A stretch of DNA of 64,000 bases from the NCBI GenBank assembly GCA_037447655.1, contig JBBHKE010001764.1, positions 243,305-307,304 on the forward strand. Direction: 5' to 3'. The position numbers and the translations under genes were made by a program. Of this stretch, positions 3,140 through 45,331 are shown one piece after another. The notes beneath the pieces were generated by a model. The model was given only the letters and a program-made list of their open reading frames with translations, had not been told where the DNA came from and did no database searches. Numbering within the stretch: the stretch's first letter is position 1; every line of letters begins with the position of its first letter. This DNA is from Zygnema cylindricum (Eukaryota > Streptophyta > Zygnematophyceae > Zygnematales > Zygnemataceae).

Positions 3140-3559
3140 GTAGGTAACTTTTTGTCCTTTTCTTATCCTGCCCTTTTCTTTATTTGTCCTGTTCTTATTT
3201 TTTCCTTTTGTTGCGTTGTCTGTGTCTTTGTTGCTTTTTTTTATCTATTTGATCCTATTTTTCTTTCGTCTCTATTATTTCTTGTCTTTTTCTTGTTTTG
3301 CTTCTATCTTGTTTCATCTCTTTCTTGTTTTGTTTTGTTTATATCTTGTTATTTATTTTTTTTGGAACCTGTTTTTGGAATCGATGGATGTATCAACGCC
3401 AGAAAGCTGGGACGGGGGGGAGGGAAGGGGAGGGAAGGGAAGGGAGGGGGAAGAGGGGAGGGGAGGGGGGGCAAGGCTGGACTCTAATAAACGTTTTTAT
3501 TCTCGTAATATTTACAATTTTTTTTTTCACTTTTAACAATAAAACATAATCCGTTCCAT

Positions 3560-4190
3560 AGCTCATCTCAACCAAATTGTGAATGAAGACAGAGAGACAA
3601 TCAACCAGAAGCTACAAAGAATGCATAAGATGACAACATTCATGACCAATTAAAGGCCATCATTCCCAAAATTTACAAGAATTATAACAAGGAATTAGAA
3701 TAAAGAATAAAAACAATAAAAAACTCATTTCAATTTCTCAAACCTCTCCCTCCTGGACCAGTTCTATCCCAACTCTCTAAGGTAGTTGGTCAAACAAACG
3801 TCCAATACCCAAAATTTTATCCCAACCTTCAAAATTTTAAGACACTAGGTCGAATACTTGGAATTAAAACAATAATCAAGAGAAAAAAAAGGCAGAAATA
3901 GCCTTCATAGCTGTGCAATGGAGGCTAAACCTGTGTAAAAAACCCCCAAAGACAAATTACAAAGGTTAAATGAACAAAAGGACACCTATGGTATAGGCTT
4001 TAAGGTTCTGAAAAGATTGAATATAATCCTTTTGTTCTAAAATACAACCTGCAGAATAGACCAAAATTTCTCAATAAACGTAAACCCACAATAAATAAAT
4101 TAAATTTCAGTTTTCAAAGTTTAGTCGCCGTCTCCTTCTCTCATTCCCTCCACACCCCCACCCCCTCTGTCCCTTCCTCAAATCCATTAC
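3560..4190 (-). other. 3' flank of gene A
   Basis: Downstream of the gene A stop on minus. The first 110 bases are probably 3' UTR (GA-rich, then TTTATTTATTG). No coding signal is seen on either strand. The exact poly(A) site is not fixed. Confidence 0.45.
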
Positions 4191-7100
4191 TTATGGAGGA
4201 TTGTTGCAGTTCCGTTTGTTGTAACCGATCCTCATTGAATTTTGATCGTAAATGACCATCGATTGTCTCATCGATATTGCTGCAAAATAGTCACACATCA
4301 AAGATGAGAGCAAGATGGTCAAATACTGAAACTTACCAACCAACAATTTGATATTCAAATTGTCAAAAGAAATGTTTGTATGTGACATGGTTATAAGCCA
4401 TTATGTCAACAATCATGTAACATACACTTGTCAAGGCCTAAATTATCTAGGCAAATACTCACACATTTATATTAAAACCATATGTTGTAAATACATAGCA
4501 CAAATACATATAGACAGGCATTCCATTATTCCACATGTCCGGCCTCTAAGGGCATCGATCGGTTTTATGAAAACAAGTAAATTCAAATGCAACAACTTTA
4601 AAAACCCTAGAAAGCCCTAAAAGACCCTAAAAAACCCTAAAAAACCTTGAGTTCGGCTTTTACCTCCAATAACGTTGGAAAGTCCATAGTCGATGGGTCC
4701 CACATTCTTCACCGCAAGGCAAAGCTTTCCTTGAAATACCTGTTGACCAGATGGATTGTTTATTATGGGCCAATGAGAGAGCCGCGACCGGTTCACAAAA
4801 CTCAACAACGTGTTCTTTTTCGACGGCTACTCCAAAAAACACGCTGGACGATTCAATCAAACAAAAACCACACCATTTTTGTGTTTATCGTTGGTGAGGC
4901 AACTTCCAAGGATTGGGCGAGTCTTAGGGTTTTACCTGAATGTACTGATCGGCCCCCATTGGCCATCGGCCTTTATCAAGGTTGATCCAAACCTCGGGAA
5001 ATACGACGGAGTACCGTTCGTAGGTGCTGACGTCATCACACGAAACCATAAAGGGGCATTATTGAAAAAAGACTCCAATCTTTCAAACATTTTTGTAGGG
5101 TTTTTTAGGGTTTTTTAGGGTTTTTTTTGTATTGTTTGGAAAAACTTTTAAGGCATCAATCACTTGAAATCCTAATAAATATTGGTAGTGGAGTGTCTAT
5201 GCTCTAGGGAATTTATGAAGGGAATTTTGCGGATTGTCTATTTTGTTTAAGTTTTTAGGAGGAGGTTTCGTACTTGGTACACATCCTTTTTAGCAACACT
5301 TCAACTTATTTTATGTTTTTAATGTCGTATGATTTTCTGGCTGAAAATCATAAAATAGCGTAAATAACAATGAGGGAGTGGCCTACAATCCGCCACATCT
5401 CCCTACACTAAATTCGTATCACAATTACAAAAGTGCAAAAACAATTGGCAACGCTATATGAGGTTCCTCAAGATGAAACATTCTCATCGGTAATTTCGCG
5501 TTTAAACCGATGATTCTACACTGCCCATCGTTATTAGCATTCATGATTGATTGGTTTTAAAAAATTTAAAATAGCCAATACTAATTCAGTGCACGAAGAT
5601 GTTATAGTCCACTCTTAAATAGTGTTGTTAACACTATTTTATGATTTTCGGCCCAAAAAAAGTCACGACCGAATTAATGTTTTTGACTCTAATGATAATA
5701 ATGGGCAGTGTGCTGACGGGCAGTGTACCGTACGGCTATTAACTTATTATACGAGCGCTGTAAATTGCATTACTGTACTGGTTGAATTATCACAACAACC
5801 GTACAGAAAAATGTAGGATTCGTATATTGCCGTACAATATTTAAAGTGACCAGTGTACTTACAGAATCGAGCTTCCAGCGGGGGCCGACCAACAAGCTTG
5901 CAGTATTCGGTACGGATCATAGGAGTACGTCAGCTCATTTGTCCTATTTGCCACAATTTCCCACATCTGCCAATTCCCAACGAAAATGACGTTGTGAGTT
6001 TATAATCCGTCGCTCATGCTCGAATATGACGTTTAGCTATTGTCTCTAGCATTTTTTTTAGTTGTGCCTTAGTCACGTCACATTCCAAGAGTGAGCTCTA
6101 GACTTCAAATTTTTGTCAATCCTCTAGGGGATAAAGGGGTAGAAAAGCTTTTGCGGAGATTATTCTAGTGATCTCCACCCTAATGTAGAAAAAGTACTTC
6201 CAATTTTCATTTGGTTGTTCCACAAATGTTTTGGATTGAATGATTTTCATTTGGTTGTTCCACAAATGTTTTGGATTGAATGATTTTCATTTGGTTGTTC
6301 CACAAATGTTTTGGATTGAATGATTTTCATTTGGTTGTTCCACAAATGTTTTGGATTGAATGATACTATAGTTATTTAAGTGAACCTATTATCCATACTG
6401 GAAGACTATCGATCTCTTTTCAAATTTTAATCTTGAGAATGTCCACTCTATTCATTTTCCTACCGTCTCATAATTCCTAATGTAATTCATTAACAAATCA
6501 AAGCCGTTTTTCAATCCCATATTCGTTATCGTATTTTTCCCCAATCTTTCTCGTCGATTTAATCATTTCCTCTCCTTTTCTTTTCTCTCTCTTTTGATCC
6601 TCACCAATGCCACAAATGCTTTCCTTCCCTTCCCTTTCTTTTCTTTTATTTTCTTCTTTCCTTTCCTTTTATTTCCTTTCTTTTCTTTTCTTTTCTTTCT
6701 TTCATTTCTCTTACTTTTATTTCCTTCCCTTTTCTTTCTTTTCCTTTTGTTCCTCACCAATGTAACAAATGCTTTCCTTCCCTTTCATTTCTTATGTTTT
6801 CTTTTGTTTTCTTTCCTTTCCTTTCCTCTCCTCTCCTTTCTTTTCCTTTCCTTTCCTTTCCTTTCCTTTCGTTCCTCACCAATGCGACAAATGCTTTCCT
6901 TTCCTTTCTTTTCTTTCCTCTCCTTTCCTTTCCTTTCCTATCCTTTCGTTTCTTACCAATGCCACAAATGGTGTGTATAGTTCGTCTACGAAGGAGGAGA
7001 TGGTGGCGCCCGAGTCGATCTTGAAGCCGCCCGCCCATTCGAGGCCGTCTCCGAAAAGGGCTTCGATTAGTTGATGGCGGAGAACACGAGTTTGAAATTT

Positions 7101-10066
7101 TAATTCTTGTCCGTTGATGTAAATCGACGCCGCGGAAATATAATATCCGGTGCTGGAACAGGGTATTTGAAAAAAAAAAAAAGGGGAAGGAAAAAAATGG
7201 TTTAGGGTTCAGGACATGTTTGGAAGCCATCCTCCCATAAACACGATAAAACAAAATAGGAAGGATTAGAGTGGTCTGAAGAGAGAAAAAGAGGGGAGGG
7301 AAGGAGGGAAAAGTTGTCATGCAACAAGGATTTTGAGTTCTGGGATAAAGGAAGAAATGAATTGAAAATGAAATAAAATGAAACTTTTTTATTTTGTTTT
7401 TTATTAGAACATCAAATGGAAAACCTTTTAACCTTTTCAGTGAAAATGGAAATTTTCTTTTAAACGCGGTAAAGATTTGCCTTGAAATTATCATTTGGGG
7501 CTTCCATAACAAAAAACCAAGAATGTACTAATATACATTTTAATATATACATATTAATATAAGTATAAATTTTGTAGAGGATAGAGTTTGTGAGACAAGA
7601 GATAGGCGGATAGAAAGATGAAAATTCCAAGCAATGAGATAAAAGAAAAGTTAACAGCGGGTAAAACTTGCGACGTGACTTACAATGGCGAAAATGTTCC
7701 TTCAATAGGAATCCACACTACTTCACTTTTGGGCACTATTTTTTTGCCTATGAAAAAATACCCTCCCGAGGCTGCCATGGGCACAAACGACAAAAAAAGA
7801 ACAAAAAATCAAAAAGCGAAAAAGACGTTGGAGAAAGTTAAAACAATATCTCGGCATATTCCTAAACCATTCGTATCATGCTCGCTAGACAAAAGTGTAA
7901 GCAAGAAGAAAGAATTAGACAAAACTAAAACAAAAAGGGCAACAACAAAACTTTTAATAAAACACCAACGAAACAAAACAAAACGTAACAAAAAAGAAAA
8001 AAGGCATTAGACAAAACAAAACAAAAAAAAATCAACAAAACCCCTAAAAAAACAAAAATAAAAACAAAAAAAGCAAAAGCAAAAGCAAAAACAAAAGACA
8101 AAAAACCAAAAACAAAAAACCAAAACAAAGTCGAAGACAAAACAAGACAAAACAACACAATAAAAAGGAGTGCGTTACTGAAGTAACTGAACTAAATGAG
8201 GTAAGTGAACTGATTTTAAACTCACATGAGAGACAGTGTCCGAAAATAGGGTTGACATTTGTCGCAGCAGCGAGCTGATTGGGCATAGAGGTGTTGGAAA
8301 CTCCAAACCCTAAAATGCCGTCCGTCGCGTAACGTCCCGTGAGAATCAAGGAGGAGGAAGGACGATTGCATCTGTAGGAAAAAAATGAATACAAATCACA
8401 TCACATGATTACAATAGATTAGGTTTTCTTCATTATATTCATTAGGTTTTTTGTTATTACATTAGATTAGGTTCTTCATTTCAATAGGTTTTCTTATGTG
8501 TTTTAAGGTTGCTTTTTTCGGTTTTACATGGTTTTATTCTTTCTGGTTTTTAAGGGTCTTTTAGGGTTTTTGCGGATATTTTCGGGGTTCTGAAGGGTTT
8601 TTTGAGGATTTTTGTTGTGTACATATTGTATTTCTTTTTATCATCACAATCAACTAGGTTTTGGAGATTAGACATTGGATATTTGAACATGAAAAAAATC
8701 ATGTTACGAAATACCCAGAATTTACCTAATTGAAAATAAGCTTGTACTTTCAAAGTCAACATTTGAGATTCTCTTCTCTTCCAAACCACATTGTTAGAAT
8801 TAAAGAAACTAAAGTTTGTTAACAAACACCATTTTTTTTCAACTTTGACACCGCCTTCGACTTTAACATTAGATTTTCATTTTCACAAAACTTTTGTCCT
8901 TTTCTCTCCTAACCTAGCGTCAAAAAATTATAAAAGATATCCGTCCAAGTAAAAACGGTTTTAAACATGAGACTTCTTCACTCATGGGCACTTACATAAC
9001 CGAAAAAGTTTTTCAAGGAGGATAAAAGACAAGAAAAACTTACCCCACAACGAGAGGAAAAGTCACTAAATTTTCCTCCACAATACTAATTGTAGTATTT
9101 GTCTTTATTAGATATCCCGTCGCGTCATCAATTCCCCCAAGGTAACTATAAAAATAAGGACAAGTACGATCCGTACTATTCCCACAGCCCTGCAAAAACC
9201 CCAATTCGTACATAGTGTGGTGATAAATAGTCCTGAGATATCCACACTAATTAGGGTTACCATCTTTGGGGTGATCGAATTTCTTCTATTACCATTGTCA
9301 CAAAATCAAAAATAGGGTCGTAATCGCATCAATTCGGTGAAATTTTTTTTTCTCTTTTTTTTAAATGATGCCCTGAAAAAAAACTAGTTTTCTCCAATTT
9401 TCTAAGTATTGAACCGATGTTATTATCCACACTATTTATGGTGACCGGTTTGTATGATGAGATTTCTTACCTTTGTGGGGGCTATGTTGGCGTCCCTACA
9501 ATAATCCGTACTGCAATCCACGACGGACGAATTGGTGGGATCAAAAGGCTTTCTCGCGGTAATAATAGGCTGTGAAAAGAAAAATAGGACAGGAAGGAAA
9601 AAAGGATTAAAAAAAGGTTATAAAAAGAAAATGGAAACAGATTAGATAAAGAATGTCGAAATCAAGTTTTCCCCATCACGTGTCTTGCGACATTTCTGCA
9701 GTTTCCAATTGGTCAGAGATTTCACATTGAGGTGTCTCTGTTGTTTTCACCTGGTCAACTATTGGTCGATGGGAATTCTCTGTTTTTTCACCTGCTCAGC
9801 TACTGAATTTTTATATCTTTTCGACGTTGTGTTCTTTTCACCTGACCAGGTATCAAAAAATGGTGATATTTTCTAAGACTCTAACATGTGTATGTTTTTT
9901 TTTACCTGACCAAGTATTAAAACATTGAGTGTAGTTTTTTAGAGTGTAAGATTTTGTTAGTTTCACCTCATCCGGTTTTGCACAGTTGACCCAAACCAGA
10001 GCACTTCCGGTATCGGGCACCATCGTCATTTTTCGGCCGCCCAAAATAATGTCGATGGTATATAGC
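4191..10066 (-). CDS. Gene A exons 25-34: C-terminal pepsin-like (A1) aspartic protease domain
   Basis: Ten short exons, about residues 2927-3304. The domain starts LYTIDIILGG and has the first catalytic motif in VPDTGSALVWV (Asp near residue 2945). Plant-type A1 landmarks follow: KPFDPTNSS, VDCSTDYC, GCGN..TCPYFYSYLGG, TDGILGFG, NPIFGHCLS and GGYFFIGKKIVPKSEVVW. The second catalytic motif is FKIDSGATISSF (Asp near 3166). The end is the family pattern (ACW..SSILTYERYSVVFPEV, KLCLAVKNVG, LSNVIGG, MVIYDQNSMRIGY) with stop TAA at 4191. Both aspartates are present, so the enzyme may be active. No propeptide sits directly before it; the domain follows a Pro-rich linker. It resembles the apoplastic group of plant aspartic proteases. 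The substrate is unknown. Confidence 0.88.
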
Positions 10067-13000
10067 CTGAAATCAACATCAAATAATGCCAAAAACATGG
10101 AAAACAATAAGAAAAAAAAAACAAGAAATTGAAGGATTTTCTATCAACAGCAGAAAATGTCGAAAACAATTGCCCAATTTGATGACGATGACATGAAATT
10201 TATGTTGGAACAAACAATTTTAGAGAAGTGTGGGAAAAATCGGGAATATCAGGTTCCCTAAAAATGAGAATTCCCCAAAAACGAAAAGAAAAAAAAAATT
10301 GTGTGCACTTCAATTTTTTTAAGATAAGAACAAAAAATATGGAAAAATTTGGAATTGCAAGGTCATGGAATGATTGGACGAAAAATGAAAATTGGTTTTT
10401 GTTATATATATATATATAGTTATATATGTATATTCATAGTTATATATGTAGGAAGACCTAAAGAAAACAAAAACCGAAATGAAAACAAAAATTGTAACAA
10501 AAATTCAAACAACAAAAACAAACGAGAAAATTGTTCTTACCCTCGACTAAAACTTCCATCCATATTGTATTGAGTCAAAGGAGGAGGAGAGGGAGGAGGA
10601 GGAGGAGAGGGCGGAGGTCTCGGTGGAGGAGGTCTTGGAGGAGGAGAGGGTGGAGGGGGCCTAGGTGGTGGGGAGGGAGGAGGTCTTGGTGGAGGGGAAG
10701 GAGGTGGAGGCCTTGGTGGAGGAGAGGGAGGATGAGGGCTTTGCGGAGGAGGCGATGGTGAAGGCGGAGGTGAGCGCGGAGCTGTTAGTGGAGGAGAGGA
10801 GATTGGAAGAAACGGTGGAGGTCTTGGTGAAAGAGGGGTAGGTGGCGAAAAAGGAGTGAGCGGCGGAGGTCTTGGTGGGGAACCTTGGGGAGGAGGAATT
10901 GGCGGGATAGGTGGAGGGGAAGTAGGTGGTGAATTTTCAATACTGCCGAAAGTGTAGGTCAAGGTGAATTTGCTTGATAGGGTCGAGTCAAAAATGTTAA
11001 CGTAGTCTTTTGGAGGACGACTACCGTCTAGTGAAAAATATGTTGTCCAACAATTGAAGGGAAGGAGGAGTTGTGACCCATCGGCACGAGATACGCCCAA
11101 AAGAGACCACAGTTTGGAAGAAAAGCCTATTGGGGAGTCGAACTTGATATATTGCCATGTGGCAGTTCCAAGGTTTAGATTAATCCTGTCAAAGAGCACA
11201 TCAAAAAATTAGTCAAAAGTGTTCTTAGTAAGGTATTTGAATGGTGAGCTGAAGGTTTTTCGAAAGGCTTTTTGTTGAACTAATAACTAATTAAGATTGC
11301 ACTTCATAATAAAGATATTCTGAAAATTGCGCTTAGAAATTAGCTGGAGCACATTCATTTTTTTTTTGTTTGAAGCGTATTGTAAACTTAATTATTTGTT
11401 AAGATTGTACTCAATAAATAAGGTTTTTTAAAAAGCTAGTCGTAAATGTTATATGCGACCTTAAACAGTACACTAGCAATTAGTTGCATTTAAAAAGCTT
11501 CTTATGATTTTCATATGCAACGTCAAGCATGTAGAGGCCGCATGAGAAACCCAGACTGGAGTTTGAATACTGAAAAGTACGTACATTGAGAGTAAAAAAG
11601 ATAAATCACCACTTGCTTAAAGACCAAAAAATTAAAAGCTGGTTGCTTACCTGTTTATTGAGACTTCTTGAGAGTATATTTTGTTTCCTGCTTCCAGAAT
11701 TGGTGCCTTGACCATAATGCGGTCTTGAGGAATATTAAAAACCGGCAAAACTGCATTCTTGAGACTACTATGGACCATATCTGGTGTGAGATCTACATCA
11801 GGAATTTGGTCTACTAAAAAGTCAGGATAACCGTCCGAATTATCTCCGTCATCCAGCATCACAACATGAATAAGATCGAACAAATCGACCGACTGGATAA
11901 CTGACAAAGAAGGTTCCCCTAAAGGGTTAATAGAGGTAAACGTTGCATTGACACCGACAAACTCCCCTTGAAGACTGCATTCGATTAGCCAACGAACTTC
12001 AGAGGTTCCCCCCGGGGCGATATCACCAACTGTTAAAGAAAAAGCATTCGGAAGAGGAGAGTTTCCAAGTAAGGCTCCGACTATGGAAAATGTGACAAGG
12101 AGGCCTTTCTTATTGGAGGTAATAGTTGGTTGGAGAGATTGAGTTTTTACTGATTTTGCAATTCCAGCTCCTGAATTATAAAGGAGGAGACCCAAAGTTG
12201 CAGGAACAGGAGGCTCCACCTGTCCCCAAACCCCTACCGCATCTTAGAAAACAACGCAAATTCGTTTATGAGCATCTCTAAAATTAAGATACTTTTTAGC
12301 TAACTGTAAAATCTTTAAAGCTTCTGTACCACGTCATAAACAAAGGTCAATTGGAATAACAAAAGAAAAGGAATTAGTTCATTAATATCCCTGCAATTTG
12401 AATCATGAAAACCTTTAAAAAACAGTAACATCTTCAAAGCTCCTACACCACGTCATCAATGTCAAATGGAATAAAAAATGAGAAGAGAAGTAGTTCAATA
12501 CCATCTCAGTCAGTGATTATATTAAAAACTCTTCACGTAACAATAAAAATTGCAAAGCTCCTGTCAAATGACAAATGTCAAATGGAATTAAAAAAAAAAA
12601 AAAAAGGAATACTTGTTCAGTCACAACTTTACAATTTATTGCAATAACACACCTTTTAAATAACAACAAAACCCCCAAAACTTTCTTACCTCTGCAGTGA
12701 ACGGGTTGTCTCCATACACTGTTCGCTGAATAAAATATTTAAGTCCAAGTTTTGGTTGAGGCTCCACTGTTATTTTCACAGGCGTCAAGTCATATTCGAT
12801 GATAGAGCCGGGACCAAAGTCCTCTACTCCATAGGTTACTGTCCCTTGTATAAAATAAGAGGTGGGCCCTAATAAAGCTGCATTTGACCTAGCAGCTATT
12901 AACCAAGTTGCAGAACCAGAAGTTTCTCCAGGTAAATAACCTGCAATAAAAACATGCTCAACAATTTTTGAAATGATAACTTGGCTAGAGATTCATTGGA

Positions 13001-28000: not shown

Positions 28001-31000
28001 GTGATCACTCTCTCAACAATAGTGATAGGTGGAGGAAGATTTGGGTGGCTTCGACTTAAATGAAATAGTTGCCACAACAACATTTGGTTTGGTCTAGAAT
28101 GTCTGCTTCATATCCTCAACGACCAAACGAGCCATTACAATTAGGAATTATTGGTGAAGTCTAAAACTTGTCAAGGGAAGAAATGAGGGACAAATAAGAT
28201 TCTAACGAAATGTCAAGAATCGTTGAAATAAGTTGAGCGTTGAGATAACGTCAACGTCAAAATTTGGAGCATTGATGTTTTTCACCTGTATAGATAAAGA
28301 TTTGAGATGCTAGACCTAGGTTTTTTAGAATCAGATGCTAGACGTAGGTTTCTATAGAATTAGTAGGCAACTTCTTCCCTGTAGGAGTTGAGCTACCTCT
28401 TGAGGTAAAACTTATTAGACTAGGATTGATTCTCATATGCGGAGGTCAAGTGTGACCACACTTTGTGAGCAAATGTGGCGTCACAAATAGCGTCAACTTG
28501 GGAGGACTCGGGTGCGAGGACAAGCCGTGAGTGCGTTTTCTTGTTTTGCGCGTACTAAGTGGTTTTCTTGGCAACATCTGAGAGTTCGGTTTCATTGCCA
28601 CATGTGATTGACAAAAGTTTTATGCGCACAAAGGTGCTCAATCTAGTGTCCCCACCCGTAAGAGAATGTGCCTTTGAATTTGGCAACGGTATTCAAGTTG
28701 CTAAGCTAATAACCTATTAAACTAGAAGTTAGAAGACATGACAGTAAAAAATAGAGTGGCAAGATAGATAGCCTGAAAGGTTTATGAAGTTTGATAAAAT
28801 GAGAAAAAGTTTGATAAAATGAGAAAAAAAAGACAATTCAAATAGATAAACAAAAAACATCTTGAGAGTGACCTCTCGGGATCGAAATGATATTTTCTTA
28901 CCTTAAAGGGTCAATTGATCCTTCACTCAAATGCTACAGACAAATTCAAGGACGGAGGACAGATCTTTGACCAGAATCTAATTACGCATAAAGCACATAG
29001 AATAAATCTAACTAAAAAAAAATTGAAATCCTGGATACTGAAACAGGCAGCAAAATTCTAGATATCGAAATTACAAAAAACCAGAACTCCAATAAGACAG
29101 AGCTTTTATCAAAGGCTAATCCTCCAACAGCCTAGATACGTTAAAACATTGCACACATATTGAAGTAGGGCTTATGGAATTTTTTTTTGCTTAATTTTAT
29201 TCCAAATATTCCCAGATCAAAGCACCCGGAGGAAGTTTTATCGTCGCTAGTTTCAACGGATTTAAAACTTACATAGGTTGCAAGCAATGCAATTTGTTGA
29301 TATTTATTGAGAATTGGACCCTTCTAAATTGATTGTTAGAAAGGTTTTTTTGCAAAAATGCCATAAATGTTTTTGGTTATTCTAGTGAAACTATTCATTT
29401 TGTGATTTTGGCATTGGTAGAGAAAATGGGGATTTCTATGCAGCCTAGAGTGAGTCCCCCAATACTTGGTGAGATATGGCAAAGGAAATTCCATAGCATC
29501 ATCTGCACTCGCTCCAAATTGGTGGGAAACAAACACACAAAAATTCTATGTAATGGAAATTCCCCGAGACAAACCGTAATATTTGTTCTTTCACACAAAC
29601 TTTAAACGACAAAAGGCTAAGTGATAGAACGAAGGTTAACCAAAACCAAATCATTTATTTACTGTTTTAATCTTTTGGTGATGCTTTGGAAAACTGTAAA
29701 AGGCAAATGTTGGTGCTCACCCACATCCGACCAAAATGGAGCAATTATTCGAACTCCGCTTGAAAAAGGAAACGGAGATGGCGTGAATTCCGGAAGTTGC
29801 CTGGAACCGAAAGTACACCATTTCAAGTGTTTTTCATCTATTCTGATAGCAGACTTCTTAAAAGTACAAAATAATCAAAGACCGCAAAACAACAACCAGA
29901 AATATTTAAAGCAATGCCTTGCGCAGATTTCTTCTCTACGGCCTAACACAATAAAAGAATCATATGTTTATCAGTGTGAGAGAAAAAAAAGTGTGTATGG
30001 CGGAGAGGAAACGGAAGGAAAAGGGAATAAAGGGAGACAGGGAATGAGCAAATCCATAGAAACAACCCAAAACTAGAGAATATTCACATATATATTCACA
30101 TATATTCACAACTGTTGTTTTTCTTTTCAAAGTTAATTAGGCAAATAAATATGAACGAAAGAACAAAAAAGAACTCAAACAGATTAAAAAGCAGTGGTTA
30201 GGCAAACGTTTGAATCAATTTCGTTTGTTAAGACCTTTACAAAACAAAGACGTGTGTTAGAAAAGAGGAAGAAGAACAGGTAAGGAGAACGGGACAAGTA
30301 TAAAGATAAAGAGGGAATGGCCGAGACAAAAGAAAAAAAGGAAACATTACAACAAAATACGAATAGATATCCACCCCTTTTTAGGATCCATTTTATATAG
30401 TGTGTCCTCTAATGCAACCCCATAATGAAGAAAGAATAGGGAGGACCAAAAAAGTGAGGAAACCGTAAACATTGAAAAGAAAAAGTGAAATTGAAAGGTA
30501 GACAATAACCAAGAGAAACTGACTAACAAGTTCATAATGTCCCTAATTTTAATGGTACTTACTCGTCAAAAGTTAGATCTCCATTGTTGTTGACAAATAC
30601 TTTTGTGGCGGTGTAGTTGAAAAATGACATCGGAGTGGGAAGAGAGATAGCCGCACTGTAAAGGTCATCATTAGAATCAAGAGTTGTATCTCCATTCAAC
30701 GGGCCGTACGGAAGAAGTCCAGGCAGGGGAGGTGGGGGGGGAGGGTTGGGAGGAGGGAGCAGAGGTGGTGGTCTTCTGGGAGGAGGACGAGGAGGTGGAC
30801 TTGGTGGTGGCAATGAAGGTCGATTTGGAGGAGGAGATGGGGGCGGTGGTCGAGGAGGTGGTGGATAAACTAGGAAAATCACAAGAAAATCGTTAAGGGC
30901 GACAGCCACGTGTCATTTAAATTAAATGACTTCCATGTTGTTTCAAATTTTGATCGATGAATTTGTGCATTGTACACTAGCAAGTTAAATTACATGTACA

Positions 31001-34000
31001 ATACATCATAAACCAGAAGATATTCACTAACAAAAGGAGGTCACTGGGTCATTTTATCACCAATAAGATAGTTGGGGCATTTGATTTCTAATAGATAGAG
31101 AGAGAATACGACATGAAAGATGTCCAGAGATTGTCAAAAGACAAAAGATACACAAAAGAGAAAGCCGACCATATGGGAGGACTGGAAAAAATGACTAAGA
31201 TGCAGGTGTTTTGGAGGAAGAAAATTGGCAATGCAAGAAAAGTAAAGGGCGGGTGGCAGACAACATAGTTGGAGGAGAAACCCTTACTAGCTGGAGTCGT
31301 ACAAAATGCGCTAGAAAGAACATTATCCCCTCGTTGTAACTCTTCCTGATTGTATTGAGAATAGTTTACGAATAGAGTTGTTGTGACTAGCACTCCCCTC
31401 GTATCGGTTTTTGGTATCAATGGTGGACTGGGAAAAGCTAGACCAAAACGAACTTCACTGACCGATGCGGGAGCTAAAGGACCTTGCAGAAAAGCCTCAC
31501 ACTCCATGGTCGTATCATTAATGTAGCTGCAAGGCCAATCTCCTCTTAAGGATACCACACTTGATATGACACTCCTCACAGTTACGGCATAAGCATTTGA
31601 GGGGCCCTTATTACCCACTTTTACCAATATGTTTTGAGAAAATGTTTCGGCATCGGTCAATAGCCCGAGTGTTAGGCATGAGCCGTTAAAGGTCTCAGCT
31701 GTATTGGTGACATTGAGGTCTATGCGTTTAAGAACAACCAATTGGGTTGTCGCAAGGGTGTATGGCCCACAAGAATCACTTACATACAGAGCAACTGTCC
31801 TGAAGACATTGTTTTTAGAAGAAAGAGCCTGTCCATTAAGGACCTCATTTGAAATGTTAATGGTCGGAGTAAGAGTCACTGCACCGGGTGTTGGTTTGAA
31901 TGTCACACCATTGTAGTTCAAATCCCACTGTATAGTAAGGTTAACACAATCATCGTAGCCACGAGTTGCTGTTCCATTGAGAACAACTGTTTGTGTTACT
32001 TTTTCTACAACAATATAAGGCCCATTTGCATTTGCAACACCTGTGCAATTCAAACCAAAAGTTTTTGTCACTCCAAATCCCCAATTCAAATAAACTAGAA
32101 CAATTTACAATGAATTTTTCAGATTTCTTTAAATTCTTGGCCAACTTAGATGTCTTATATTAACCAAAAGTACCACTGTAATTTGAATAAAGTGCTATAA
32201 AATCATTGAAACAACGTTTATTAATGACGCTTTCTTGAAGAATGTCTGGCTATTTTTGAATTACCGTTAAGATCTACGAAAGGAAATACTAGGACTTGAC
32301 ATGTAAAGAACGTCAGTTATCCGAGACCGTTTATGCCATCAGCCTTTGCCATTTTACTCATTAGTAAGTTTTGGATGCCTTATTCTATTGCTTTTGAGTT
32401 TGCAAAAGAGTTCTCATTTGATATCTACGGTCTTGCCGTTGTTTTTGGCTTTTCAATTTCATGGCATACGTTTTCCATTGTTTTCTCCCCCCAGCAACAA
32501 AACGAAGGCAGTTTAGCCTACATTCTTATCTGTCTGTAAATCCTTTCATATAGATTTGTTTTTTTACTGGATACATATATTGGAAATTACCCGACCTTAA
32601 ATAAAACTGAAAAAGGCGGTTGTATCTACTTCAAGACATGTTTATGTTCTACAACGTGTACTTGGGTTATCAGGGAAAGAAACTATCACCTGGTGGGATG
32701 ACGATGTTCACTGCCGATATTCTAAAACACCATTTTCCCGGGATGTTCACATTTGATGTTCGAGGAAGTTCGGACATAGTAGAGTTGCCCGAGCCAGGAA
32801 AGTTGTAATAGTTTTCATCATCACCAGCATCAAAACCACATTGAGCATATGTGCCATCTGCATTCAAGTCAAATTCTAACATTGTTTGATTATTCCTGTG
32901 CTACAAAGTTTTCATTTTTTCATTGGTTTGAAGGCAAGGGGCTTCACAACTCTTTTCACCTTCCAGCCAAGATGACCTCCGATGTTTCTTCTATTTAATA
33001 TCTCAACATCAGTACTCAAAATATGCCTTCCAAATGTCAAATTCCATTTTGGACTTGTGGTGTTAATGACACAAATTCCCTTTATACCTTCTCGAAGCAA
33101 AGCGAATATGCAATTAGTCATTCTCAACATGCAAAGTGACAGATTATGCCGCACAAAACAAACAACAAAAAGTGTGAATGGAAAAGAATTGAAGAAAAGG
33201 CAAAACACGACTGAAAGATAACAGCTACTGTTGTGATCTAAATGTAGGGAACACAAAATTTCATAAACTCGATAAAGGTTTCACCTTCCAGAACTCCTTG
33301 AACAAAACATACTTTATTGTAATTTGGAAGACCACTCACCATCGGGATAGAGCCATTGCAAGCCATTCTCAGGGTAAAGAGTACACGAATAAGTCACGGG
33401 CTGAGCACCGACGGAACTCCAGACCAGCCATGTTTGAAAAGTATTTACTTTATCAGTTTTTTTACTGCAAAAAAAAAAATTGGCAGGCAATGCTTTTAGC
33501 ACTGTAACTTAATGTCTTACATTTGGTTAAAAAGGGTGGCATTTTTATGATGCTGAATATGAGAAAACAATGAGGATTTGGTTTTTGCTGAAAATTCCTG
33601 CTTTATTCTTAAACTAAAAGTGGTGACCATGGTTATATCGTTTTTGGTTTTTAGCAAAACCATGATCAGCGCAGCCACTTTAAAAATATTTACCATTCAA
33701 GAATATTTGATGAGAGTATTTGGTAAACCAAATCCAAAATCCGCATTCCTTTTTAATATTCGACAATAGCTTTTTTGACATTTACTTTGTCATAAAAGAC
33801 AAGAAATTAATTTCAATGTTGACATAAAAACGTTTTGATTGTAAAAAAAGCAATTACTGGAGCCTCTCATGCATTCTAATTTGAAAGAAATAAGATCCAA
33901 TTCCCACCGAACAAATCCCTAAGATGTCAAAATAAATTCGTCATTTGGGAAAAATATTCAATCGGCATAATTTAAAGATAACAACGAATATTGGTGAATT

Positions 34001-37000
34001 GCAATAAAACACTCCATTTGAATCATCTTCTACCCTTATTCTTTAAGTAGCAAAGAAAAAATCGTGATAAATCCAAGTGCGGTCATAAAAACCGATGCAA
34101 AAGTTACATTCTGAAGTCTTTGTCCAGAAAAGACCTCTTATTGTGAATTAAGGAGAGGTACAGTTCCCAAAAAAAAAAAACCCATAAAAGGATCCCAATT
34201 TTAAGCCTCAATATGGCTCAATTAGTAGCTTTTCAGTTAACCACAGTAATAAAGCACATCCAGGTTTTCGATTTGGGCAAAAGGTGTTTTCCTTTTGATG
34301 AATACCCTTTCTTTGGAATCTCTGTGCTCTCTCCCAGAAATTAAAATAATTTGCTATTTCCCGCTATATTCACACGAAAATACCTTGAAAAACTAAATCC
34401 CGTAAATTTTTTCAGTTGTTAAAATGGCCATTTGGAAACATATTTGGATTCAGTGGTAACTTTAACCTGTGTACTGGCTAATATGGCTAATTCTAGTTAG
34501 GCAGAACCAATAACCTTCCGTTTAAGGCCATGTCATTCGCAAAAATCAGGAAATTTATTGCTTGTATTTAACTTTAGACAGGTGGTTCGGTTTCAAATGT
34601 TGTCACATAGAGCTTTTCATTTTCATTTGCGCTTTGTGCGTCAAAAGAGTGTGTTCTAAGATTTTCATGTTCTTCAGATGCGTTTATGTTAGTAAAATTC
34701 AATTGAGAATGGCTTGCAAAAATGTAGACGTGAGTGTTTCACTGGGTGTTTGGGTGTTTGATTCTGTAGATTAGGCATGGCATTTAAACTAGTTTGATTC
34801 TCAGAGCCAAATTTCACTGAAAACCTATTTTTTTTTTTACTATTTCTGCTCTGCAAAGTTGCTTGATCCTTTTATGACCAGCTACATTCATTTTGATCAG
34901 ATAACTTCTAGAAATTGGAATCACTCCCCCATTTTTTTGCTATTTTTATTAAAACTTGCTTCGTTTTCTGGTTTTCCATGTTTTTAAGGTTTTTGTACTT
35001 ACAGCTGGTGCCATAGTTTTCGCCATTATTGGATAGAATCACTATGTTTTTTCTGTCTTGATCATAAGTGCAACTCTTTTCTGGATATGGTATGCTTTTT
35101 ATTCATGGGAGACAGAAAAAACTCGGCATTTTCTGGCAGCTAGAACTTAACATTGGTGTCGTCTTTTGCCATAATTCACATTTTGTCTAGTCGGCCAAAT
35201 AATTTCAAAATCCTCTGACATTTTTTCCATCAGAAACGTTTGCCTTCAATAGTTTCAGATTTTGTGGCTGAAAATATGCTTTATAATCCCATATTTAAAA
35301 GCTTCTAAGAGGCATATTGGCCGAAAAGAACCACTCCCATGTTAAACTTTCTCACGCCGAAATTTACCAAACACAACAAACACCTAAATGCCTTTGAGGA
35401 CATTCTTTCTTAAACACAACACGTAAGTTTCGTTTACAGACTCAAAGTTAACAACACAGACTTAAAGCTAACAGCATAAGTGTCCCGTTTTGGAGAGTTA
35501 TTCACGTACTTGTAGTATCCGACGTCGATCCAAGAGGCTACAAAACCCCCATTTGGAGTAAAATTTTTGGCCCCTGGGAAAACATCCTTCACCTGGCCCG
35601 CCATGCGAGCCAAGTCCTCGGGCCTTTTACTACTGCTCACTGCCCTGTAATGGACGAAGCCTCCATTGGTTGGTCTCGTATCTACTCACACCACAAACCA
35701 CATGCACACATGTAAGAGGAATATGGTTTTCGGGTACAGTAAACCTTGAGTTTCCATAAATATTTCGCCCGTGGAAAAATACTTCTTTATCGAGTACATG
35801 GGCATTTAATCATCGGAGGAGGTCTTAGTAATATGGTACTATAAATTTAAAGTCCAATAGAGGATCAATCTTCAACTTCTGAGAAATCAACCATTAAAAG
35901 TTTCTTAGGTAAAACAAAATAGTGAAACAAAGCTCAACTGGTTGACAACCATAACGATTAATCAACATTGTTTTTTTTTTTTCGCCATTATCTAGTGTTC
36001 TTCACCAGATGCTCCAACCAAAGACAAAAACCTAAAAGTGTAGTCACAACATTCACCAACGCAAAAATTATCCATCAAGAATTCAAAAAAGGGACGTTCA
36101 CAAAATCAGCGCCATCGAAAATTTATTCCCTGGAATAAGCGGACATCATAATTTGGCCGCAGATTTCCAGAAACATCATACCGCGGCCATCTGTAATTTC
36201 CGCTGCCATAATCATTGTAGTGACTATGCTTAAGAGTGATCTTCTCACCTACGTCCGACCAAAAAGGGGCAATTAGTCGAATTCCACTCGAATAAGGAAA
36301 AGGAGCTGGTGTATACTCTGGAAATTGTCTGAAACCAAAATACATCGTTGCAACCTATTGTGAATGCGAGTTAAATGTTAGAAAATAAAATGGAAAAAGA
36401 TATAAAAAGAGAATATGTTAGGGTTCCCACGGGTATGACAAATGTTGGAAGAAAAGTGTTTTATGAGGCCTTCATACAATCGTGGTACCTATGAGGGTGG
36501 AGAGAGGATAAAAAAAGTGTTTGGAGAGAAGTTGAAAGAGGGAGAGAACGGGGAGGAAGGAGGGAAAAAAAGCACAATGCAAAGGAAACTAGCCAGCCAT
36601 GGATAAAAATTTATCAGAAAACCCTAAAAAAACAATGTACCTATGTTTGCTTTTTCTTAGGATCCATCTCCCATCCTTTTTCCTCCAAGGAGAACCTAAA
36701 TTGGGTTTCACAAAGACTGACTAGAAGAAGAATTGAACATAAAAGGTGAGAAGAACACACGAGAGGAGCCAAAAGTTGGTTTTCACCCGACATAAAACGA
36801 CTAAGACATCTTGGAACCCCTTTTCCAAATGATGAGATAATTCAAGGGAGCGAGAGAAAGAGGGGAGGGAGAGGGAGAGCGAGGGAGAGGGATAGCGGGA
36901 GAGAGGGAGAGAGGAAAAAAGGAAGCAACGAAGCAAGGGAGAGAGGGCGAGAGGAAGGAGGAAGAGAGCGAGAGAGGACAAGGAGGGGACAGAGAGTGAG

Positions 37001-37407
37001 GGCAAACAATACGACAAAGTTCCAACCGACGACTTCTCCAATGACAATTTTCCAACCCATAAATTTCTCAACCAATTGGCAGTTTCTTATGCGAAAAATT
37101 CCGCATCTCACAATGTCAATTTATCAAACTTTTTTACAGTTTCTCAAGAGGCAATTTCTCACTCGTCAAAAGATAGGGCGCCGTTGCTGTTCACAAAAAC
37201 CCTCGTGGCGGAGTAGTTGAAAAACGACAAGGGAGTGGGAAGGGAGACAGCCTCACTAAATATGTCGTCACTGCGAGAGAGAGTGACGTCACCATTTGCA
37301 GCACCAAATGGAAGGAGGTCAGAACGCAAGAGGGAAGAGACGGGAGAGACAAAAAGTGTCGACAGTAAAGCGAAGAGAAGGGAGAGAGAGAGGAAATTGT
37401 GTGGCAT
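4191..37407 (-). CDS. Gene A: giant secreted multidomain protein with C-terminal pepsin-like protease (34 exons, 3,304 aa)
   Basis: Exons, 5' to 3' on minus: 37407-37163, 36328-36249, 35681-35510, 33464-33340, 32857-32690, 32040-31288, 30869-30563, 29800-29721, 24294-24123, 23608-23484, 22846-22679, 21869-21117, 20675-18271, 17581-17448, 17145-17039, 16579-16435, 15891-15684, 15435-14913, 14572-14321, 13931-13696, 13511-13355, 12940-12690, 12219-11651, 11185-10541, 10066-9967, 9569-9471, 9189-9044, 8371-8226, 7771-7684, 7152-6957, 5966-5863, 5026-4936, 4739-4664, 4279-4191. Every junction uses GT..AG and keeps one frame from ATG 37407 to TAA 4191; the total, 9,915 nt, is divisible by three. 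The start is chosen because it opens a hydrophobic signal peptide (MPHNFLSLSLLFALL...). The order is NIDO, PKD/DUF11-like, Pro-rich, NIDO, PKD/DUF11-like, Pro-rich, IPT/EGF/Ig-like, bacterial-like block, Pro-rich, aspartic protease. I infer a secreted wall or matrix protein. A transcript could still show that the region is split into several genes, but the codons split across introns argue for one. Confidence 0.8.
4596..5131. repeat. Inverted CCCTAAA-like short arrays around exons 32-33
   Basis: At 4603-4645 are five units of the CCCTAAAA type, and at 5096-5130 three units of AGGGTTTTTT, in opposite orientation about 450 bases apart. They resemble degenerate plant telomere repeats (CCCTAAA). 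Gene A exons 32 and 33 lie between the arms. A weaker AGGGTTTT cluster is near 8548-8600. Confidence 0.6.
5517..5712. mobile_element. MITE, TA-flanked (in intron 31 of gene A)
   Basis: Starts TACACTGCCCATCGTTATTAGC and ends with the inverted TAATGATAATAATGGGCAGTG. It has no coding capacity. Its interior matches the copy at 18001. A second copy of the terminus (gggcagtgta) follows at about 5718-5727, and a partial relative lies just left at about 5318-5420. Confidence 0.7.
6203..6362. repeat. Four perfect 40-bp tandem repeats in intron 30 of gene A
   Basis: The unit starts attttcatttggttgttcca and ends ggattgaatg. Copies at 6203-6242, 6243-6282, 6283-6322 and 6323-6362 are identical, which points to recent expansion. 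There is no spacer between units, so it is a minisatellite and not a CRISPR. Confidence 0.95.
6590..6970. repeat. CT-rich minisatellite carrying copies of an exon end and splice donor
   Basis: CT-rich tracts are broken by a motif of about 25 bases (ctcaccaatgNNacaaatgc) near 6600, 6753 and 6875. The same motif is the true 3' end of gene A exon 30 with its donor at 6956. On minus, each copy reads GCATTTGTNNCATTG followed by GTGAGG. Confidence 0.85.
7790..8165. repeat. A/C-rich low-complexity tract in intron 28 of gene A
   Basis: Runs of caaaa and aaaac units dominate. No coding support is seen; the Lys- and Phe-rich open frames here are composition effects. Confidence 0.7.
10541..11185 (-). 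CDS. Gene A exon 24: end of the beta block and Pro-rich linker 3
   Basis: 645 nt, about residues 2712-2926. The first 88 or so residues (INLNLGTATWQYIKFD, PFNCWTTYFSLDGSRPPKDY) close the preceding domain. The remaining 110 or so are Pro-rich (SPPPRPPPPSPPPRPPP) and end with QYNMDGSFSRG just before the protease. The linker separates the adhesive part from the catalytic part, like linkers 1 and 2 between the other modules. The acceptor is at 11186-11187 and the donor GTAAG starts at 10540. Confidence 0.8.
11651..17581 (-). CDS. Gene A exons 14-23: long block resembling bacterial giant surface proteins
   Basis: Ten exons, about residues 1852-2711, joined in frame. Landmarks in order: VPAPVVIIEPSYL, ITNVGLIATTDTELLLPTDN, LPALTSILIPV, a Cys-rich part (FSCDPTVFSVRWCYLCDG), a predicted helical segment (DEYFGKEDSSEWLN), VCAEVTVVVKQ, PTLLGLTSIDGTGYLPGE, YFIQRTVYGDNPFTAE, SVDLFDLIHVVMLDDGD and DGYPDFLVDQIPD. 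I know this order of blocks (EYTYFAEG, VPAPVV.IEP, NHGLIAAE, PAQSSI.VPV, GD.PFTPE.EPS.PF, DG.PDFLVND.PD) from very long uncharacterised secreted proteins of bacteria; that is memory, not a search. No catalytic motif is visible. Its role is probably structural or adhesive. Confidence 0.72.
13625..13718. repeat. Duplicated exon end and donor at gene A exon 20
   Basis: Two similar units about 50 bases apart: ataagtcaaactcacttact..gcattcataataa and ataagtcaaatatacttact..gctgcattcgtaataa. The right unit holds the donor used at 13695 (GTAAG on minus). The left unit carries a second potential donor (acttactgcattc). Confidence 0.7.
18001..18192. mobile_element. MITE, TA-flanked (in intron 13 of gene A)
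   Basis: Starts TACTGCCCATCGTTATTAGC and ends ACTCTGATAACAATTGAGCG followed by GTGTA. It shares interior words (tagtccac, aatagtgttgtta, ggccaaaaaa) with the element at 5517. Confidence 0.68.
18271..20152 (-). CDS. Gene A exon 13, 3' part: IPT-like, EGF-like and Ig-like adhesive region
   Basis: About 627 residues in one exon. The first segment (PAPGGTITIIGSGF, then YTCLRNNSP) has the shape of an IPT/TIG Ig-like domain. Next comes a Cys-rich EGF-like stretch (CSSSGLCSAGICICSD). A putative Ig segment follows (APLGMSINDLTGVISW). Later parts contain TSDANGKFESTFDP, a CARDB-like stretch (FATLANTGGTDLTG) and, near the end, DEYTYFAEGSPLLGGATVTL with TSNGTVTFSNL, which has the form of a carboxypeptidase-regulatory-like beta sandwich. 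All are extracellular beta folds. The exon ends at donor GTGTGT (18270) in phase 0. Confidence 0.75.
20153..20675 (-). CDS. Gene A exon 13, 5' part: long Pro-rich (SPPP/RPPPP) linker 2
   Basis: About 174 residues made almost only of Pro with regular Ser, Arg, Asn and Leu (units such as SPPPPPSPPPRPPPP). The SPPPP pattern is typical of hydroxyproline-rich wall glycoproteins of green plants and algae, where Pro becomes hydroxylated and arabinosylated and forms a stiff rod; here that is inferred. The acceptor lies just before TGTATCC at 20675. The stretch holds two identical 131-bp copies (20168-20298 and 20438-20568), a sign of recent expansion. Confidence 0.85.
20168..20568. repeat. Two identical 131-bp copies inside Pro-rich linker 2
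   Basis: 20168-20298 and 20438-20568 are identical, 270 bases apart, inside a coding repeat. The offset is a multiple of three, so the frame is kept. Confidence 0.88.
21117..21869 (-). CDS. Gene A exon 12: PKD-like and DUF11/CARDB-like unit, copy 2
   Basis: This exon is 753 nt, the same length as exon 6, and is closely similar throughout (ANANGPYIVVE, LVVLKRIDLNVSN, VKVGNKGPSNAYAI, ending FCTVPA). It covers about residues 799-1049 and joins directly to the long Pro-rich linker in exon 13, just as exon 6 joins linker 1. It is the second half of the duplicated NIDO plus PKD/DUF11 module. The fold assignment is by motif only. Confidence 0.77.
22679..30869 (-). CDS. Gene A exons 7-11: Pro-rich linker 1 and second NIDO-type domain
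   Basis: Exon 7 (30869-30563) starts with about 45 residues of PPPPRPPPPSPPP type and then repeats the NIDO opening (LLPYGPLNGDTTL, VFVNNNGDLTFDE). Exons 8 to 11 give SSGVRIIAPFWSDV, DTRPSNGGSVYYRTV, GGFVASWINVGYY, VNTFQTWLVW and YGECGFDAGDEENYYNFPGS. Their lengths (80, 172, 125, 168 nt) match exons 2-5 exactly, so this is a tandem copy of the first NIDO unit. The intron between exons 8 and 9 is about 5.4 kb because a copia element lies in it; the matching intron of copy 1 is about 570 nt. Confidence 0.8.
24490..24880 (-). repeat. 3' LTR of the copia element
   Basis: It shares with 28715-29129 long similar runs such as ttagaagacatga, atagagtgg, agatagatag and aatctaattac, with many substitutions. 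The right end at 24880 is well defined (minus-strand TGTTCAG next to the purine tract); the left end is approximate. Confidence 0.7.
25885..26086. mobile_element. MITE inside the copia element
   Basis: Starts TACACCGTGAATCATTATTA and ends ACGCTAATAACGATTCAAGG then TGTA. It is nested in the retrotransposon and is therefore younger than it. Confidence 0.7.
28715..29129 (-). repeat. 5' LTR of the copia element
   Basis: This is the partner of 24490-24880, with a small internal duplication (tttgataaaatgagaaaa twice near 28790-28830). The outer end at 29129 reads TGTTGGAGG on minus. The inner edge is approximate and no clear tRNA primer site was found. Confidence 0.68.
31288..32040 (-). CDS. Gene A exon 6: PKD-like and DUF11/CARDB-like unit, copy 1
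   Basis: This exon of 753 nt covers about residues 264-514. The first part (ANANGPYIVVE, then VVLNGTATRGYDD, then IQWDLNYNGVTF) has the form of a PKD-type Ig-like fold. The second part (LVVLKRIDLNVTN, SQNILVKVGNKGPSNAYAV, LAPASVSEVRF) has the pattern of DUF11/CARDB repeats, with the tell-tale VKVGNKGPSNA turn. Many NxS/T sites fit a secreted glycoprotein. The exon splits codons at both ends, as its duplicate at 21117-21869 does. Confidence 0.75.
32690..37407 (-). CDS. Gene A exons 1-5: signal peptide and first NIDO-type domain
   Basis: Residues 1 to about 263. Exon 1 gives a signal peptide of about 25 residues and then LLPFGAANGDVTL and VFVNSNGALSFDE. Exon 2 gives SSGIRLIAPFWSDV, exon 3 gives DTRPTNGGFVHYRAV and GGFVASWIDVGYY, exon 4 gives VNTFQTWLVW, and exon 5 gives YAQCGFDAGD, NYYNFPGS and LPRTSNVNIPGKWCFRI. 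This run of motifs (opening LLPFG..NGD, IAPFW.DVDTR, FVATW..VGYY, NTFQ..L, GFNAGD..YF..PGS) is that of the NIDO domain of nidogen, alpha-tectorin and mucin-4, an extracellular adhesion-type module. Cysteines near the end probably form disulfides. Exon lengths are 245 (coding), 80, 172, 125 and 168 nt. Confidence 0.82.
33465..35509 (-). other. Intron 3 of gene A, long and without recognised content
   Basis: A 2,045-nt intron between NIDO exons 3 and 4 (the matching intron 9 is about 514 nt). It is AT-rich, and no retroelement domain or inverted repeat was recognised. It probably holds an old insertion too decayed to name. Confidence 0.5.
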
Positions 37408-45200: not shown

Positions 45201-45331
45201 TCTCATGCTCACCCTCGGTTGCTGGAGCCTAAAGAGAGTTGCGTTGATGCCAAACACGTCAGCAAGGAGGTCGCACGTCACTGTCGGGCCGCTTGGAACA
45301 GTGAAACGTTGACTAGAGAGACTTGCCGCAT
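42219..45331 (-). CDS. Gene B: C-terminal LysM modules and stop
   Basis: Exons 45331-45213, 44563-44474, 43588-43469, 42872-42675 and 42428-42219 are supported. They contain repeated LysM signatures: QRFTVPSGPTVTCDLLADVF, NDTCASVASLFQLA, STYTVPSGATCASVIN and TIYTVVAGDTCLSILTSFN, each with flanking cysteines. LysM modules bind N-acetylglucosamine polymers such as chitin or peptidoglycan. The last exon ends TVCTPV with TGA at 42219-42221. Between 44474 and 43588 one or two more exons are expected, since a half module must precede NDTC. Candidates lie near 44070-44180 (GQTVTPGFNASE) and 43750-43815 (SKLTVAIYANPG), but their splice phases do not fit cleanly. Confidence 0.75.

Follow-up and report, generated by a model that had tools for sequence, protein, structure and literature searches.

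A Zygnema cylindricum gene model joining two NIDO units, a bacterial-type block and a C-terminal aspartic protease: a candidate modular wall protein

We analysed 64,000 nucleotides of the streptophyte alga Zygnema cylindricum (assembly GCA_037447655.1, contig JBBHKE010001764.1, positions 243,305 to 307,304), hereafter the window. Its minus strand from 37407 to 4191 reads as one gene model of 34 exons and 9,915 nt, predicted to encode 3,304 residues. Two NIDO units, a block that giant bacterial proteins also possess, and an aspartic protease of plant type are connected in it by proline-rich SPPP linkers. At the level of the predicted gene, the fusion of NIDO units, block and protease is solid. 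To the explanation that we favour we give an even chance: the product would be one large secreted wall or extracellular-matrix protein, composed of whole modules shuffled at the SPPP linkers, cleaved at an RRRRLL motif and carrying an anchored protease.

The model was obtained with a purpose-written gene finder, which combines a codon model with position weight matrices for GT-AG splice sites and holds the frame through introns. The ATG at 37407 was supplied to all runs and the stop at 4191 was also forced in the trained run; the gene finder was therefore not blind to the ends given in an initial annotation, which had described a single gene of 34 exons and 3,304 residues over the same interval. 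When the stop was forced, the trained run returned 41 exons; removing seven micro-exons and one 61-nt extension left 34, the exon and residue numbers of that annotation being known when the model was pruned. With supplied ends and this pruning, the single gene was reproduced. An intron penalty of 11 with a free end gave 31 exons and a stop at 7266, not 4191. Two other settings were rejected as over-split: a penalty of 2 (173 exons) and a penalty of 8 with a free end (48 exons, stop at 4037). Five of the dropped micro-exons (28920-28902, 28054-27939, 26371-26283, 26190-26165 and 25222-25203) lie in a NIDO 2 intron and are absent from the NIDO 1 counterpart. Another (22205-22170) was dropped likewise, the NIDO 1 side offering no counterpart, and the last (9841-9792) is broken by a one-base difference in the protease relative on contig C1404, described below. 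The 9966-9906 extension of exon 25 was also dropped, though it is open in both the window and C1404 copies, and exon 25 may perhaps be slightly longer.

When the best splice sites within 25 nt of the model sites were chosen blind to frame, they coincided with all 33 model donors and with 31 of its 33 acceptors. The frame was kept at 31 of the 33 junctions; because the search intervals were centred on the model sites, this agreement is a consistency check only. Model-independent support comes from the shared exon borders of the NIDO units, from relatives that have the same module order from NIDO to block, but not the protease, and from a protease paralogue that keeps the ten protease exons. Intron 8 (5.4 kb, 24300-29700) holds a degraded Ty1-copia polymerase-like fragment, recognised by eye (25575-25865; no Pfam match at E<=0.01).

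The two NIDO modules named in the initial annotation were confirmed on the spliced protein. Pfam PF06119 matched aa 69-255 (158.6 bits, E 2.3e-46) and aa 604-790 (150.5 bits, E 7e-44), both far over the curated cut-off of 25 bits and covering profile positions 2-185 of 186. The units have matching exon borders and a DNA identity of 76-85%. Between NIDO/DUF11 units 1 and 2, synonymous divergence (dS) is 0.57-0.72 and the ratio of non-synonymous to synonymous divergence (omega) 0.16-0.27. Judged by sequence, the second NIDO unit and the first arose by tandem duplication. A protein database that is apparently poor in eukaryotes gave 22 NIDO matches at 29-37% identity, most of them unnamed; two are named by their source as nidogen-like (Sulfitobacter, Phycisphaerae). 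These bacterial or unnamed proteins share the NIDO module with the alga, but their partner domains differ.

The 251-aa module that follows each NIDO unit had been labelled PKD/DUF11. The PKD label was not confirmed: Pfam matched none of the six module members to PKD at E<=1; an AlphaFold2 model tried for this question was too weak for use (pLDDT, the predicted local distance difference test score, of 48). DUF11 (PF01345) was retained as a weak resemblance: it matched two of the six members (best E 0.0038), with 15.8 bits in the open reading frame (ORF) containing exon 12 and 14.1 bits in unit 2, against a cut-off of 24.6. The three SPPP linkers described before were supported (exons 7, 13 and 24). 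They contain 63-76% proline with SPPP-type motifs; exon 7 joins linker 1 to NIDO 2, and exon 13 joins linker 2 to TIG and the block. TIG, EGF-like, He_PIG and SdrD_B-like parts were missing from the earlier domain list, as was the bacterial-type block. TIG (aa 1229-1291, 21.2 bits, cut-off 20.9), He_PIG (aa 1365-1435, 24.8 bits, cut-off 24) and SdrD_B (30.0 bits, cut-off 29.7; 29.5, just short, in the single-exon ORF) are marginal, and the EGF-like (~1321-1349) and CARDB-like parts fall below the Pfam cut-off. The signal-peptide-like start, together with the lack of a hydrophobic C-terminal tail on the protein, points to secretion.

The block comprises about 1,300-1,330 residues, some 40% of the protein. 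Searching with aa 1223-2790, where only the 7,990 candidates with most shared words were scored, gave 62 proteins of 2,113-5,754 residues (best E 5.8e-106, 28% identity over 90%); the few with an organism name are bacteria. The match is collinear over ~1459-2791. The proteins align as one main stretch or two, at 22-39% identity, with a variable part (~1975-2210) between them, and some of the 62 reach only the C-terminal part. CARDB-like and SdrD_B-like parts lie in the first half, in exon 13. Aa 2228-2793 were aligned with 11 of the 62 proteins, and prokaryote genomes scanned with this alignment yielded 481 pattern stretches, of which 399 are relatives. The best 80 of the 399 all have bacterial titles, many of them metagenome bins, and include Planctomycetota, Verrucomicrobiota, Cyanobacteriota, Pseudomonadota, Armatimonadota and others. 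In the viral collection IMG/VR, two loci (L081, L082) on contigs called viral code for part of the block. In neither the alga nor the two bacterial members scanned did the conserved C-terminal part of ~570 residues score above a Pfam or NCBIfam cut-off; with 399 prokaryote relatives, it is a family worth naming. The AlphaFold2 model of a bacterial member contains a helical part and Ig-like sandwiches, and this prediction shows the block as a scaffold without a recognised enzyme. An IHELIH-like stretch of the bacterial consensus (L001-L080) is not conserved in the alga. A protein search with a 189-aa exon-sized query scored 145 candidates, none of which reached E<=0.001; it missed the bacterial relatives too and says little.

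From its spread among bacteria, we infer a bacterial source for the block. In one tree the algal clade stands beside three Planctomycetota rows (96 in the Shimodaira-Hasegawa-like approximate likelihood ratio test), with a long-branch warning; another tree places it on a long branch at the root. An arrangement that unites the algal block with cyanobacteria was not rejected (approximately unbiased test, p 0.20). The algal block is interrupted by introns. Compared with two paralogues, exon 23 has an omega of 0.10; at the dS of 1.4-1.5 the counts are near saturation.

The complete C-terminal A1 protease of the initial annotation was recovered as a plant-type enzyme with both lobes: TAXi_N (98.7 bits, E 5.7e-28) and TAXi_C (50.9 bits) are both over cut-off, and Asp (PF00026) scores 23.0 bits against a cut-off of 19.9. 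The catalytic motifs DTGS (aa 2945-2948) and DSGA (aa 3166-3169) are both kept in the C1404 paralogue, and the DTG/DSG pair is shared with chlapsin of Chlamydomonas (PMC8643629). Among solved structures, the sequence matched plasmepsin V, basic 7S globulin and EDGP (4 distinct sequences, E<=0.001). Nepenthesin-type enzymes have extra cysteines after DTGS. A TQCFNTW-like stretch behind exon 25 is open in the window and in C1404, and was left out of the preferred model because the frame-restoring micro-exon that it needs is broken by one base in C1404. A flap-like tyrosine stretch, recognised by eye, is kept in both copies. Ordinary nepenthesin-like or TAXi-type plant A1 proteases are short; they share the TAXi_N/TAXi_C profile with the algal domain, which in contrast ends a modular protein of 3,304 aa.

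The genome searched amounts to 352.8 Mb in 2,689 contigs, and all counts of relatives are lower bounds. A close protease relative was found on one other contig (C1404), and other A1 proteases (Pfam Asp) on at least eight contigs. C1404 carries an SPPP linker and an A1 protease, with a signal-peptide-like ORF upstream; this linker-protease is probably stand-alone. It shares the ten protease exons with the window, and all splice sites compared (10 acceptors, 9 donors) are kept. Identity is 92.9% in exons and 88.9% in introns. We counted 30.5 synonymous changes over 251 sites and 46.5 non-synonymous changes over 829 sites (omega 0.44). None of the codons compared is a stop; 18 of 378 codons, mostly in the last exon, had no comparison. 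The best reading is that the giant protein carries a predicted active protease. A self-tethered wall protease would fit the signal-peptide-like start, the matrix-type modules, the catalytic dyad kept in the paralogue and the omega of 0.44.

NIDO exons occur on at least seven other contigs, and the block has at least five further copies spread over four contigs (two on C2295, one each on C975, C233 and C225). C2015, C260, C2295 and C233 were read in part, C1404 and C975 in pieces; C2359, C814, C225 and most of C975 are known only from short search loci. On the minus strand of C2295, a hydrophobic leader, NIDO and a DUF11-like module precede an SPPP linker, TIG and the block, the last three in one ORF. 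The minus strand of C233 has the same order from aa 164 on. On the plus strand of C2295, the block (from aa 2049) is followed by an SPPP linker and then by an ORF with two PAN domains (PAN_1, 55.2 bits). The minus-strand copy of C975 has the same PAN end, as identified by sequence likeness without a domain scan. In both, the PAN domains lie a few hundred bases beyond block and linker. In C260, NIDO and DUF11-like exons are followed by a linker and a legume lectin (Lectin_legB, 105.5 bits) in one ORF, and in C2015 NIDO, DUF11-like and proline-rich stretches are followed by a gap of ~5 kb. At 560-606 kb of C2295 and 53-89 kb of C975, NIDO exons and block face each other on opposite strands; these are perhaps duplicated regions or two haplotypes.

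In all five cases inspected (two in the window by the model; C2295, C233 and C260 by eye), the linker exon behind a NIDO unit is entered in phase 1, and the module before it ends in that phase. Linker 3 lies inside exon 24 and so has no intron-phase border. Phase-1 entry, the breakpoint of C1404 similarity in linker 3 and the differing end modules point to module exchange at the SPPP linkers, and the sister genes with lectin or PAN on related scaffolds suggest that the scaffold carries exchangeable effectors. A broader proposal, plausible but in our estimate short of even, is an exon-shuffled matrix system in which a domesticated bacterial cassette and NIDO units together make up a secreted scaffold. 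SPPP linkers would serve it as universal joints, the C-terminal effector (A1 protease, PAN pair or L-type lectin) would be swapped by recombination at the linkers or within them, and a site-1-type cut would divide it into a matrix chain and an effector chain.

The RRRRLL motif is a candidate S1P/SBT6.1-type cleavage site. By pattern it is the only polybasic site in the 3,304 residues (KRRRR at 2193-2197, then LL). The four algal block copies examined (one in the window, two on C2295, one on C233) all have it unchanged, and it is one of two invariant six-residue runs at an exon identity of ~42%. Of 110 bacterial-type sequences (48 ORFs plus 62 proteins, with perhaps some overlap), 3 have RRLL or RKLL anywhere. 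In flax pectin methylesterases, RRLL and RKLL are tabulated as cleavage motifs (PMC4008260), and SBT6.1/S1P acts in the Golgi on pectin methylesterases and CLEL precursors (PMC7162652). These secreted proteins share an RRLL-like motif with the algal one, in which, unlike them, cleavage would separate two large chains. The conservation of RRRRLL suggests cutting by a Golgi subtilase instead of self-processing.

In the favoured explanation, the linkers would form stiff glycosylated rods, and the NIDO/DUF11 units and the Ig-like block would bind the protein in the matrix or space it there. A Golgi site-1-type subtilase would cut at RRRRLL, giving an N-terminal matrix chain of ~2,200 aa and a C-terminal block-linker-protease chain of ~1,105 aa. 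The protease would then act on wall proteins near its anchor.

Several observations weigh against this explanation. A second gene with the full NIDO-block-protease order was not found among the relatives, several of which are partial, nor was a protease in the fetched stretches of the NIDO contigs C2295, C233, C260 and C2015. The minus-strand copies of C2295 and C233 break off inside the block (at aa 2751 and aa 2559). The PAN joins and the NIDO-linker join of C260 rest on proximity in unspliced DNA, and the linkers of the C2295 plus-strand copy and C975 contain frame shifts; with the unspliced PAN step, these shifts mean that both copies may be partly broken or mis-sequenced. The block structure matched mostly single domains, and aa 2163-2181 are hydrophobic and may be a membrane segment. 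Finally, the protease segment has a close twin in C1404 (dS 0.13), so that the join may be of recent date; in principle, SPPP repeats could also have been misjoined.

Such an assembly chimera, two genes misjoined in the SPPP repeat of linker 3, would explain why the similarity to C1404 stops in the repeat. We consider it very unlikely: the 64-kb window contains no N, and its protease differs from C1404 by 7% in exons and 11% in introns. Being distinct from C1404, it would require that both true partners of a misjoin are missing from the assembly. Two or more genes or transcripts, with the protease expressed from its own promoter in the block/linker region and the NIDO-block part ending elsewhere, are also unlikely, though less so. 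The probably stand-alone C1404 linker-protease, with the same ten exons, speaks for such a split, as do the two other block copies followed by PAN domains instead of a protease. However, exon 24 is open and uninterrupted from the block end through the linker to the protease and contains no intervening signal peptide. This speaks against a separate protease gene in the window; in addition, the DNA similarity to C1404 stops in the linker, short of the upstream ORF of C1404.

Similarly improbable is a wall glycoprotein with a structural role, in which the protease domain would be inactive or serve mainly for binding. Scaffold makes up most of the protein, no classical prosegment was recognised by eye beside the protease, and DSG replaces the DTG typical of higher-plant A1 enzymes, yet chlapsin has DSG too (PMC8643629). 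Both catalytic Asp residues and the flap-like tyrosine stretch are nevertheless kept in the window and C1404, and neither the omega value nor the absence of stops in the compared codons favours loss of activity. The self-processing matrix protein put forward in the initial annotation, in which the C-terminal protease would cut its own linkers or chain, appears quite unlikely. Enzyme and linkers do lie in one chain, but the conserved cleavage-like motif is of subtilase type, and the plus-strand C2295 copy, with PAN and no protease found, keeps it, which argues against self-processing.

Among the papers listed in literature searches, none mentions this architecture in its title or in the opening of its abstract. 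NIDO proteins have been reported in filamentous Zygnema and as absent from three unicellular Zygnematophyceae and from land plants (PMC11096116). The likeness lies in the presence of NIDO in a streptophyte alga; in the available part of that report the domain is only named, and module order, block and protease are not described there. The giant bacterial CARDB/CarboxypepD_reg proteins (Planctomycetota, Verrucomicrobiota, Cyanobacteriota and others) have the collinear block of ~1,300 residues in common with the alga, whose block, unlike theirs, has introns. The precomputed Pfam lists of the 62 bacterial-type proteins contain no NIDO and no A1 protease; a subtilase domain occurs in one protein (P0047). 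In animals, NIDO is carried by secreted modular matrix proteins of the nidogen, mucin-4 and tectorin type, and we know of none with an A1 protease. Gametolysin and VMP of volvocine algae are M11 wall metalloproteases with hydroxyproline (Hyp)-rich domains, and are not known to have NIDO or the bacterial block. They resemble the algal protein in combining a wall-type protease with a Hyp-rich-type domain, but belong to M11 and not A1. A secreted modular matrix protein and a wall protease with a Hyp-rich linker are known kinds; what is apparently new is how the modules are combined, that an alga has the bacterial-type block, and that the ends are exchanged. If the proposal is true, shuffling at Hyp-rich linkers gave a relative of land plants modular matrix proteins in the animal style, of which some include enzymes, a plant-lineage parallel to the exon shuffling of the animal matrix. 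It would also have taken up a large structural cassette of giant bacterial proteins, which then gained introns.

Features of the gene model and related positions in the window (numbering from its first nucleotide).
Feature	Position	Strand	Content
Exon 1	37163..37407	-	start codon; signal peptide aa ~1-25 (by eye), hydrophobic peak aa 5; NIDO unit 1 begins
Exon 2	36249..36328	-	NIDO 1; copy of exon 8
Exon 3	35510..35681	-	NIDO 1; copy of exon 9
Exon 4	33340..33464	-	NIDO 1; copy of exon 10
Exon 5	32690..32857	-	NIDO 1 end; omega 0.16 vs exon 11
Exon 6	31288..32040	-	251-aa DUF11-like module, phase 1-1 symmetric; omega 0.27 vs exon 12
Exon 7	30563..30869	-	SPPP linker 1 (30869-30715, aa 515-566), NIDO unit 2 start
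Exon 8	29721..29800	-	NIDO 2
Exon 9	24123..24294	-	NIDO 2, behind 5.4-kb intron
Exon 10	23484..23608	-	NIDO 2
Exon 11	22679..22846	-	NIDO 2 end
Exon 12	21117..21869	-	second DUF11-like module, phase 1-1
Exon 13	18271..20675	-	802 aa: SPPP linker 2 (20675-20158), TIG, EGF-like, He_PIG, first half of bacterial-type block
Bacterial-type block, whole	10948..19449	-	aa 1459-2791, spans introns
Exon 14	17448..17581	-	block
Exon 15	17039..17145	-	block
Exon 16	16435..16579	-	block
Exon 17	15684..15891	-	block, variable Cys-containing part
Exon 18	14913..15435	-	block, variable part
RRRRLL motif	14986..15003	-	aa 2194-2199, exon 18; candidate S1P/SBT6.1-type cleavage site
Exon 19	14321..14572	-	block
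Exon 20	13696..13931	-	block
Exon 21	13355..13511	-	block
Exon 22	12690..12940	-	block
Exon 23	11651..12219	-	block; omega 0.10 vs two paralogues
Exon 24	10541..11185	-	block end, SPPP linker 3 (10932-10576), first protease strand; one open exon
End of C1404 DNA similarity	10682		inside linker 3
Exon 25	9967..10066	-	protease, catalytic DTGS aa 2945-2948
Exon 26	9471..9569	-	protease
Exon 27	9044..9189	-	protease
Exon 28	8226..8371	-	protease
Exon 29	7684..7771	-	protease
Exon 30	6957..7152	-	protease, catalytic DSGA aa 3166-3169
Exon 31	5863..5966	-	protease
Exon 32	4936..5026	-	protease
Exon 33	4664..4739	-	protease
Exon 34	4191..4279	-	protease end and stop; only first part comparable base by base with C1404

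Next to the gene, the minus strand of the window from 42630 to 61292 contains one or more neighbouring genes with leucine-rich-repeat-like, EGF-like and LysM-like stretches, recognised by eye; those scanned gave no Pfam match. The same region has a PAN_2 domain at 50494-51042 (23.6 bits) and, at 48790-49203 and 47701-48015, a C1 protease of papain type. This neighbourhood is perhaps a second matrix-plus-protease design. On C2015 (L107), a C1 protease exon (6310-6741, minus strand, 27.1 bits) lies downstream of the NIDO gene, and NIDO and C1 genes may thus be neighbours more than once. On the plus strand of the window, 2891-3487 gave a weak Patched-like match (19.9 bits, below the cut-off of 23).

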